Positions 1 to 53,931 of a stretch of 53,931 nt of DNA are shown here, piece after piece. A program made the position numbers and the translations under genes. The number at the start of each line of letters is the position of its first letter. The first letter of the stretch is position 1. The notes below the pieces were generated by a model that was not told the DNA's origin, searched no databases, and was given only the letters and a program-made list of their open reading frames with translations. This stretch comes from Candidatus Micrarchaeota archaeon CG1_02_47_40 (GTDB lineage Archaea; Micrarchaeota; Micrarchaeia; Anstonellales; CG1-02-47-40), in assembly GCA_001871475.1 (NCBI GenBank), contig MNVE01000004.1, positions 19,152 through 73,082 on the forward strand, in the 5' to 3' direction.

Positions 1-683
1 TTCTCCTTTCCCTTATTCTCCATTTTCACAATCTCAATCTCCCCAACCTCTTTCAAATTTTTCACATGCGTCCCTCCGTCCGCCTGCAAATCCACTCCGT
101 CTATCTCAACAATCCTCAAAATTTCAATTGATGGGGGAAGCGCCCCTGCCAATTTCACCACTCCTGGTATTTTCATCGCCTCTTCCCGTGCCAAGTAATA
201 GGTTTTCACATTTGCTCCTTTCCCAAAAAACTCATTAGCCTCCCTAACGCACTCCTCAAACATTTCCCTTTCAAATGCTGGAAGTGAAAAATCAAACCTA
301 ACCTTGTCCTCTTCTATCTGGTTTCCGGTTATAAGCGCTCCCGTTTTCTTATTCAATATCGTTGCAAGAGTGTGCGCTGCCGTATGCGAGCGCATGAGTC
401 TGTACCTTCTCTCCCAATTCAGGATGCAGTGTACGGAATCTCCTTCCTTTAACCCTTCCCTATCCACCTCGTGCGAAATTTTTCCTTCAAACTTTCCCGC
501 AAAGAGAACTGAAAATTCTTCCCCTCCTCTAACAAGTTTTCCAGTATCCTGGGGCTGCCCCCCTCCCCTCGGATAAAACAAATTCGCATCCAGCACGGCA
601 AACTTCCCGTCCTTTACGGAAACTACTTTGGCTTGGCACTCCTTTACGTATGAATCTTTCAAATAAAGAGGTTCGGAGTCCAT
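1..683 (-). CDS. alaX: Alanyl-tRNA editing protein AlaX (C-terminus beyond window)
   Basis: AlaX proteins are free-standing relatives of the AlaRS editing domain; they hydrolyse Ser or Gly mischarged onto tRNA-Ala. 227 residues are visible and the 3' end runs off the window. The first zinc motif HTAAH lies at residues 100-104 and the second, DGGTH, near 202-206; the family N-terminal glycine motif GGGQPQDTG lies near 40-48. The ATG at 681-683 starts 18 nt after the upstream toxin gene, so it may be co-transcribed with that toxin-antitoxin pair. The first Cys of the usual CxxxH pair is Asp/Gly here, as in many AlaX. Family assignment is firm; the subtype (M or L) cannot be decided without the C-terminus. 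Confidence 0.9.
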   Translation of the reverse strand, partial: MDSEPLYLKDSYVKECQAKVVSVKDGKFAVLDANLFYPRGGGQPQDTGKLVRGGEEFSVLFAGKFEGKISHEVDREGLKEGDSVHCILNWERRYRLMRSHTAAHTLATILNKKTGALITGNQIEEDKVRFDFSLPAFEREMFEECVREANEFFGKGANVKTYYLAREEAMKIPGVVKLAGALPPSIEILRIVEIDGVDLQADGGTHVKNLKEVGEIEIVKMENKGKE

Positions 684-1280: not shown

Positions 1281-1418
1281 TGGGGTCGTAGGGATTGCCG
1301 GCCTTGCTGGCAATACTTGTCCGCCAGACAGAGGCATTTGGACCCTAACTTGCAGGTTTCTTTTGCCCAAAATTGGGGATCTGGAGCCTGCCGCGCTGCC
1401 AGATTACGCCACGACCCC
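1281..1418 (-). tRNA. tRNA-Trp (CCA) with two introns
   Basis: The minus strand folds into a full cloverleaf. Acceptor GGGGTCG (1418-1412) pairs with CGACCCC (1288-1282), discriminator A at 1281. D-stem is 1409-1406/1396-1393, anticodon stem GCAGG (1391-1387)/CCTGC (1356-1352), T-stem TAGGG (1347-1343)/CCCTA (1293-1289). The anticodon CCA is at 1384-1382. Intron 1 (1380-1358, 23 nt) lies at the canonical 37/38 site. Intron 2 (1336-1295, 42 nt) splits the T-loop at 59/60. Removing both leaves exactly 73 nt. Around intron 2 both splice sites read AA|T in three-nt bulges, with a GCCT/AGGC helix beyond, a relaxed bulge-helix-bulge. T-loop position 55 reads C, not the usual U. No CCA is encoded. 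Confidence 0.92.
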
Positions 1419-11281: not shown

Positions 11282-11291
11282 GTTGAGCAAA

Positions 11292-11705
11292 ATGGCGCAA
11301 CCATATCGCTTTTTGGAGCACAGAGCAGATATCCTCTTTGAGGCGGAAGGGAAGGACTTTAAGGAGGCGCTCTCAAATTCAGCGCTGGCAATGTTCTCTG
11401 TAATCGGAAAGGCAGAAGGGAAAGAGAAGGTGAAAGAAAAGGTGAAAATAAAAGAAAAGGGGGAAAATAAGGAGCAATTGGTGGTTTATTTTCTCTCAAA
11501 ACTCTTGTCTGAAATGGATACGCGCGAGATTGTTTTCTCTTCAGTGAAGATTGAAAAGCTGGATGAGGGGAAGATGGAAATAGAGGCGACTGCCCTCGGT
11601 GAAAATGTCCGCCCAAAATTTTCAGTAAAGGCGGTTACGTTTCATGAGCTGCAGGTGAAAGAAGATAAGAAGGGATGCACAATAAGAGTGCTGCTGGATG
11701 TTTAG
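11292..11705 (+). CDS. Archease
   Basis: 137 residues. Archease stimulates the RNA ligase RtcB, which joins tRNA exons after intron removal. The family N-terminus 'YRFLEHRADILFEAEGKDF' and C-terminal 'VKAVTFHELQVKE...TIRVLLDV' are clear. A Lys/Glu-rich insertion (residues about 40-58) separates the two halves. The ATG at 11292 is preferred to the upstream TTG at 11283. It follows glyA by 10 nt, probably in one transcript. Its role fits the intron-bearing tRNA-Trp in this window. The 3' end overlaps the convergent gene by 4 nt. Confidence 0.9.
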   Translation: MAQPYRFLEHRADILFEAEGKDFKEALSNSALAMFSVIGKAEGKEKVKEKVKIKEKGENKEQLVVYFLSKLLSEMDTREIVFSSVKIEKLDEGKMEIEATALGENVRPKFSVKAVTFHELQVKEDKKGCTIRVLLDV

Positions 11706-37458: not shown

Positions 37459-38099
37459 TTGCCGAAATAAAGCCTCTCAAACCTTTCCCTTGCCCCCATA
37501 AGCTTATCAACTTCGGTTTCATTCGTGCAGATGGCAATTTTCACGCTCTTTTTCTCTTCCGGTTTCACTATCCCATCCTTTTCTTTGCTCTCCAAAACTT
37601 TCTTTTGCTTGAGCGTATCCGACCTTTTCTTTCTTCCTCCTGCTTTTGCATTCTTCTCACTTACTTTCACTGCCACTTCTCTCAAATCATTTCCGCTTCC
37701 TTCCCCGCTCTTCCCTTCCTTTAGTTTCACTGCCACTTTCCCTAATTCGCTCCCGCTTCCTTCCCCGCTCTTCCCTTCCTTTAGTTTCACTGCCACTCCT
37801 CCCAATCCGCTTCCTTCCTTTAGTTTCACTATAGCTTCTTTACTCTCCAAACCCACGTTCTCCCCCCTAAGTTTCGCTATCGCTTCCTCCCCCTCGCTTT
37901 CCGAAACCTCCAATATCCCTTCCTTTTTTGAGAAAAGCGCAATCGCATAAGAAGCAAGCAAATCTCCAACCTCATTATCCTTTTCCCCTTTCTTTTTTTC
38001 CTTCTCCTCCAATAAGACAAAATCAAAACCTGCTTCCCCTGCCAGAATAAGCATCTGCTCAAGCGCAATCTTTTGAAGGAATTTTGCCCCGACTAACAT
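37419..38099 (-). CDS. Hypothetical protein with internal 20-residue repeats
   Basis: 226 residues, not recognised. An N-terminal alpha/beta part ('LQKIALEQMLILAGEAGFDFVLLEE...ASYAIALFSKKEGILEV') is followed by tandem repeats of VAVKLKEGKSGEGSG plus five residues (about 95-150), a Lys-rich stretch, and a C-terminal segment 'VKIAICTNETEVDKLMGARERFERLYFGKDYVKRNREYLNP'. The DNA of the repeats is near-identical (for example around 37720-37800), so duplication was recent. The 3' end itself is duplicated downstream. No membrane segment. Confidence 0.65.
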   Translation of the reverse strand: MLVGAKFLQKIALEQMLILAGEAGFDFVLLEEKEKKKGEKDNEVGDLLASYAIALFSKKEGILEVSESEGEEAIAKLRGENVGLESKEAIVKLKEGSGLGGVAVKLKEGKSGEGSGSELGKVAVKLKEGKSGEGSGNDLREVAVKVSEKNAKAGGRKKRSDTLKQKKVLESKEKDGIVKPEEKKSVKIAICTNETEVDKLMGARERFERLYFGKDYVKRNREYLNP

Positions 38100-53578: not shown

Positions 53579-53931
53579 ATGGCAATCATAAAATCCACAG
53601 AGGCGCGCGAACTTGATGAGAACGCGCTGCTTTCAAAGCTTGCGCAAATAAACGAGGAGTTTTTGCGCGAGAGGGGGCAGGTCGCAACAGGAGGGAGAAG
53701 CTCAAACCCGGGAAGGATACGGGAATTGCGCAGAAGCCGCGCAAGGATAATAACGATTCTGCATGAGAAGGCGCTTGGGATAAAGAAAAACGTGAAGCCG
53801 AAAGTAAAAGCAGGCGGAGCGAAGGCACAGGAAAAAGAAAGCAAAAAAGATGCGGAAAAAGAAAGCAAAAAAGATGCGGAAAAAGAAAGCAAAAAAGATG
53901 CGGAAAAAGAAAGCAAAAAAGATGCGGAAAA
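53579..53931 (+). CDS. rpl29: Ribosomal protein uL29 with repeat tail (runs off window)
   Basis: 117 residues visible. Core 'IKSTEARELDENALLSKLAQINEEFLRERGQVATGGRSSNPGRIRELRRSRARIITILHEK' is L29. After about residue 75 it becomes a Lys/Glu/Asp tail with four complete tandem copies of 24 nt (EKESKKDA, 53831-53926) and continues past the edge. The normal protein would end near residue 70. It starts 3 nt after the rps3 stop. Confidence 0.92.
   Translation, partial: MAIIKSTEARELDENALLSKLAQINEEFLRERGQVATGGRSSNPGRIRELRRSRARIITILHEKALGIKKNVKPKVKAGGAKAQEKESKKDAEKESKKDAEKESKKDAEKESKKDAE
53831..53931 (+). repeat. 24-nt tandem repeat in the rpl29 3' region
   Basis: Four perfect copies at 53831, 53855, 53879 and 53903, with a fifth started at 53927 when the window ends. 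In frame, unit EKESKKDA. Length of the array is unknown. Confidence 0.95.

Follow-up and report, generated by a model that had tools for sequence, protein, structure and literature searches.

A probable second intron in the T-loop of a Micrarchaeota tRNA-Trp and the intron family to which it belongs

Non-canonical bulge-helix-bulge introns of tRNA genes, and their transposition on a large scale, have been described for the Thermoproteales (Fujishima 2010, as cited in PMC4033280 and PMC4090602), and 59/60 is among the positions at which such introns are known (PMC4090602). In Pyrobaculum calidifontis, 71 introns interrupt 46 tRNA genes (PMC8450103). ARMAN-1 and ARMAN-2 have multi-intron tRNAs (PMC4033280), and passages of PMC11291895 give 92-95% as the share of tRNA genes with introns, many of them non-canonical, in Atabeyarchaeia and Freyarchaeia.

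The locus considered here is a tRNA-Trp gene in a stretch of 53,931 nt (the window) on contig C4 of Candidatus Micrarchaeota archaeon CG1_02_47_40 (1.15 Mb, 16 contigs, 93% complete). The original prediction was of a second, T-loop intron in this gene, of a kind known from Thermoproteales and ARMAN-type archaea, and that background is supported by PMC4090602 and PMC4033280. Going by what the citing papers say of the Thermoproteales, the likeness lies in similar introns in different isotypes of one genome, position 59/60, a relaxed motif and an enzyme of broad specificity. The differences are the phylum, the enzyme (epsilon2 here, alpha2beta2 there), the fact that most tRNA genes of one genome are hit at the T-loop, and the presence of one family with a hairpin core that covaries across many genomes and with covariation between exon position 57 and the intron. 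The ARMAN-1/2 introns share with ours the phylum, the epsilon2 endonuclease architecture, and the presence of multiple and non-canonical introns; PMC4033280, PMC6379350 and PMC12397907 describe multiple introns there but no T-loop-centred family or order-wide spread. Atabeyarchaeia and Freyarchaeia are similar in the high share of tRNA genes with introns and in non-canonical positions, but these are Asgard archaea, and the passages of PMC11291895 mention neither a T-loop family nor introns with a covarying structure.

In sum, the Thermoproteales already provide examples of introns at 59/60, of relaxed motifs and of intron transposition. A T-loop-centred, structurally conserved family across an order of Micrarchaeota was not found reported in the mainly open-access literature searched, and it is apparently new. 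It bears on how archaeal tRNA genes gain introns, as the family is well defined, exists in many copies and combines a fixed target word with exon-intron covariation.

The tRNA-Trp gene

The gene and its parts, all on the minus strand, are as follows.

1281-1418 (-), tRNA-Trp(CCA) gene with two introns; A73, the discriminator, at 1281; CCA end not encoded
1358-1380 (-), intron 1, canonical position 37/38, 23 nt
1337-1342 (-), 5' part of the T-loop, TCCAAA (T54 C55 C56 A57 A58 A59)
1295-1336 (-), putative intron 2, T-loop position 59/60, 42 nt, class A member (independent model, rough E=3e-14)
1332-1335 (-), 5' strand of the h' helix, GCCT, partner of AGGC 1304-1301
1318-1330 (-), S1 hairpin, TGTC-TGGCG-GACA, covarying across the class A family
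1307-1327 (-), CTGGC (1327-1323) complementary to GCCAG (1311-1307), covarying across the class A family
1301-1304 (-), 3' strand of the h' helix, AGGC
1297-1300 (-), CGGC, intron strand of the weak central helix (C55-G, C56-G; A57.C mismatch)

The ends can be read directly, with G1 at 1418 and A73 at 1281, and so can the 23-nt intron at 37/38 and the 42-nt insert at 59/60, both as predicted. The limits of intron 1 are ambiguous by a one-base slide (A/A). Downstream of the insert the gene resumes with T60 at 1294, the T-stem being formed by TAGGG (1347-1343) and CCCTA (1293-1289), and ends in the acceptor strand 1288-1282. ARAGORN, and Rfam at its gathering score, found nothing in the window, which is no surprise where two inserts split the gene. 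Taking out the T-loop insert lets ARAGORN recognise tRNA-Trp(cca) with an intron of 23 nt, which bears out the expectation that removal of both inserts leaves a 73-nt cloverleaf and means that removal of intron 2 restores a normal tRNA.

At both junctions of intron 2 the sequence reads AA|T, and the GCCT/AGGC helix lies beyond, as had been noted; bulge 1 consists of A58, A59 and the first intron base. The central helix is indeed weak, C55-G and C56-G being its sole Watson-Crick pairs, with mismatches at A57.C and U54.C. The locus thus has the bulges and outer helices of a bulge-helix-bulge motif and two of the four central pairs, which fits the relaxed form only. A self-splicing group I or II intron is rejected by the lack of an Rfam match (window and nine loci) and by the length, 42 nt being far too short.

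C55, which had been remarked on as unusual, is real. Every other tRNA parsed from the genome has T55, and so does the tRNA-Trp of G001, a genome of the same family and another genus. That gene has an intron of 114 nt at 37/38 and an uninterrupted T-loop, TTCAAAT. A second, intact tRNA-Trp in the genome, which the original prediction had named as an observation that would speak against it, was sought at the DNA level, with a relaxed tRNA search and with a tRNA 5'-half model, and was not found in the 93% complete assembly.

These observations bear on whether the insert is simply kept, the tRNA-Trp working with an enlarged T-loop or the gene being dead. The weak central helix and C55, which removes the usual pseudouridine site in Trp, would suit a retained insert. 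Against it, the interrupted gene is the only tRNA-Trp found, the T-loop of the sister-genus tRNA-Trp is uninterrupted, and, as described below, a T-loop interruption is seen in 34 of 42 tRNA genes, whose T- and acceptor stems are intact downstream. Without splicing, the cell would therefore lack most of its tRNAs, and we regard retention as extremely improbable.

T-loop introns and splicing enzymes of the genome

About four of five tRNA genes found carry a T-loop intron (34 of 42, counted by hand from listings in an inventory drawn from searches and named stretches rather than a full scan). The relaxed tRNA searches and the 5'-half model gave 41 genes; tRNA-Leu(CAA), read from locus L255, brought the number to 42. 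Other positions are used as well. Introns at 37/38 occur in 14 genes, three Val genes have D-loop introns, tRNA-Arg(TCT) has one near 29/30, and all three Pro genes (L007, L018, L142) have one at about 53/54. In tRNA-Pro(CGG), the T-arm is split twice, by the intron at about 53/54 and by a class A intron in the T-loop.

Removal leaves a normal 7-nt T-loop in all 33 tabulated T-loop introns. By the best of three registers these fall at 56/57 (12), 58/59 (10) and 59/60 (11), six class A copies having been set to 59/60 by homology and not by score; exact splice points slide within A-runs. Each of the 27 T-loop introns outside class A can form four pairs with its exon, G-U included, in whichever of three registers fits best, a choice that favours a fit. 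The pairs of the 56/57 group vary in concert, as in Ser (AGGT/GCCT) and Ile (GAGT/GCTC). ARAGORN called 8 of 23 tRNA genes unspliced and all 23 once the T-loop was spliced; as the intron limits were chosen by hand, the test bears on the outcome, not on the boundaries.

The genome has one gene for a splicing endonuclease, of 395 aa. The type of this enzyme, epsilon2 or alpha2-beta2, was to be looked for, and it is of the epsilon2 type. Over residues 6-395 it matches the epsilon2 endonuclease of ARMAN-2 (PDB 4FZ2; E=6e-136) and is similar over its full length. The catalytic residues Y236, H251 and K282 and K161, the lysine of the ARMAN-specific loop (PMC6379350), are conserved in the printed alignment with 4FZ2. 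Its nearest relatives in the named collection are from Micrarchaeota, the best with 69% identity. RtcB, the tRNA ligase, is encoded too. With an endonuclease of suitable specificity and a ligase, the genome appears to have the enzymes that a bulge-helix-bulge intron needs.

One side observation concerns the ligase. The RtcB gene (G000:C6:15163-17979; L206, L207) has two Pfam blocks about 1.5 kb apart within one open frame of 981 aa, an arrangement suggestive of an intein. The window itself holds the gene for a cofactor of RtcB.

11283-11705 (+), archease gene (PF01951, E=5.1e-32); not linked to the tRNA

The class A family

When the tRNA-Trp gene is used as a query in its own genome, the T-loop insert recurs at the same point in tRNA-Leu(TAG) and tRNA-Pro(CGG). 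The class A introns, as we call them, number seven in this genome, in the T-loops of Trp, Leu-TAG, Pro-CGG, Gly-TCC, Asp and initiator Met and in the D-loop of Val-GAC, where the copy is placed at GTCGAA^T. Across the order, the members of the family are about 37-48 nt long and share one insertion point (TTCRAA^T) in many different tRNAs. A model of the seven copies finds matches in 41 of the 84 genomes searched in the order (E<=0.1, a rough value), and in the best matches, read in context, class A occupies T-loops of Arg, Lys, Thr, Ala, Glu, Asp, Ser, Ile, His and Leu and, in a few copies, D-loops with GTCGA or GTCTA (Val- and Gln-type tRNAs). Near-identical introns in unrelated isotypes, as in the transposed introns of Thermoproteales, are thus found both within this genome and across the order.

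To avoid circularity, an independent covariance model was trained on 29 sequences, all from other genomes. It matches 1342-1294 of the window with 44.3 bits (E=3e-14) and the next best place with 8.1 bits (E=0.44), E-values of both home-built models being rough, and it re-finds the other class A copies of the genome. The match rules out a chance palindrome as the explanation of the window insert. Rfam gave no match to the class A intron at E<=0.1 in nine loci. The reading of the insert as a second non-canonical intron remains the best one and was too narrow: the insert is, as far as comparison of sequences goes, a real second intron and a member of a structured family spread through T-loops in the order, and within its own genome most tRNA genes carry T-loop introns.

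The family shows pairing between exon and intron. C56 faces G in all 37 class A copies. At position 57 and its partner in the intron, 21 copies have A-T, 12 have G-C, two have G-T, and A.C and T-C occur once each, and the two positions covary (Fisher p=8.7e-7, A/G cells), the counts being of sequences and not of independent events, with relatedness ignored. The single A.C is that of the window tRNA-Trp, which gains a C-G pair from having C55 rather than T55. In 30 of the 37 copies C lies opposite T54, and a full 4-bp H helix in the T-loop copies is accordingly rejected; in the five D-loop copies, G faces C.

Within the intron, the S1 hairpin (TTTGNNC-TGGC-GNNCAAA) has 91 Watson-Crick pairs of 99, against 33.7 +/- 4.7 in shuffled sequences, and the helix between the loop TGGC and a downstream GCCA has 118 of 128, against 107.6 +/- 1.3; none of 20,000 shuffles came up to either value, sequences again being counted irrespective of relatedness. 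For this test S1 was anchored without using pairing, an earlier choice of the best hairpin in each sequence having inflated the score. A permutation test on the first seven class A sequences was weak except for S1, and the larger set was then used. S1 shares bases with the GCTT/AAGC outer intron helix, and the predicted helices cannot all form at once; the two may be alternatives.

We infer, with high confidence, that the 42-nt insert is a spliced bulge-helix-bulge intron of a mobile family targeted to T-loops. In the fold proposed for the pre-tRNA, a relaxed bulge-helix-bulge, the T-stem would be the outer helix and an AA|T bulge would lie on each side. The weak central helix would be made by exon positions 56-57 (plus C55 in Trp) with the 3' end of the intron, and the GCCT/AGGC intron helix would lie beyond. 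The epsilon2 enzyme would cut both bulges and RtcB would join the exons. As T54 generally faces C in class A and the central helix of Trp has two pairs, cleavage should depend on a relaxed enzyme. As the T-loop is nearly invariant, TTCRA(A/T)T, the exon half that it contributes to the motif would be alike in nearly all tRNAs. One intron could then be spliced from many hosts, and the T-loop would be a favourable home. Class A would spread between tRNA genes, lineages gaining T-loop introns in bursts.

How the spread might occur is a matter for more tentative proposals. One, possible but doubtful in our judgement, is that class A is a mobile structured RNA that spreads by means of its conserved hairpin and long-range helix, for instance through reverse splicing into TCRAA of T- and D-loops followed by copying into DNA, with an origin perhaps in the Val D-loop and with Trp as a recent recipient. 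The central helix of the Val D-loop is perfect (GTCG/CGAC), and the intron C retained in the T-loop copies faces T54. The direction from the Val D-loop to T-loops is only a suggestion that rests on this one base. Trp as a recent recipient would be in keeping with an intron base that fits a host with G57 or GTCG, and U55C would partly repair the helix.

Mobility, repeats and spread in the order

A second repeat is pertinent to the question of mobility. The palindromic class C repeat (CCCATATGGGG...RAGGKYTYMACYCC) lies inside many T-loop introns of the genome, its pattern having 24 matches there and the reversed pattern none. Across the order it is also found between genes, in introns at 37/38 and immediately 3' of tRNA genes. 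The window has no copy, and with its different sequence class C is rejected as the source of the window intron. Three intergenic copies (L058, L060, L075, on contigs C1, C4 and C15 of G000, the genome studied here) have a common 5' flank, GGGGGTAGAAGTCCGACCCC or a close variant. Short palindrome arrays of the TTGACNNNTTCGNNNGTCAA type are also frequent between genes and lie inside some T-loop introns too (L035, L011:2392-2443, L025:1354-1399, L031).

The T-loop inserts could be non-autonomous DNA elements (IS200/IS605-like palindromic elements or MITEs) with a short target word, spreading as DNA with their hairpins as transposase signals and removable by the splicing enzyme by chance. They are rich in hairpins and have a fixed target, TCRAA, with no target duplication seen in class A; class C occurs both within T-loop introns and outside tRNA genes; and the independent class A model has weak, partial matches to some intergenic palindrome arrays. 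Copies with the same ends outside tRNA genes would mark such elements. The class A copies read in context (the best matches) instead all lie within tRNA loops, despite an estimated 1,370 or so TCRAAT words in the genome, and the covariation of exon 57 with the intron, together with the restored T-loops, points to selection on splicing. A DNA element is for these reasons unlikely.

Another explanation sees the introns as remnants of tyrosine-integrase elements, which use tRNA genes as attachment sites, or as protection from them, splicing neutralising the leftover or blocking new integration. The concentration of introns at anticodon- and T-loops here recalls attachment sites covering these loops, as described in PMC2647930 (citing Williams), and PMC3293823 reports the protection idea of Randau and Soll and a tRNA intron gained beside a mobile element. 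Class C directly 3' of tRNA genes is also in its favour, the tRNA 3' end being repeated on the far side at L211 (G033) and L202 (G019). No duplication of the attachment type accompanies the class A introns, however, and class A is also in D-loops with the same word, GTCGA, which suggests placement guided by the word or by splicing and not by integrase sublocation. We hold an integrase origin to be quite improbable. In L223 (G050), it is the 5' start of the tRNA that is repeated beyond class C. These partial repeats look like attachment-site duplications at the level of sequence.

In the related genomes, between 3 and 45 tRNAs are recognisable. In the heavily depleted ones (G004, G010, G031, G037), T-loop introns are in most genes parsed. 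G017, of the same genus as G031 and G037, has none among the genes read. This pattern suggests that lineages may gain T-loop introns in repeated bursts. Where tRNA finders report few tRNAs in these genomes, the genes may be interrupted rather than absent. Recognisable tRNAs in this genus (g17) number 36 in G017, 19 in G022, 6 in G037 and 3 in G031, and its congeneric genomes are good material for dating and testing intron gain.

Elsewhere in the window, 53830-53925 and 37661-37814 are tandem repeats inside long open frames, the former of 24-nt lysine-rich units and the latter of 60-nt units.
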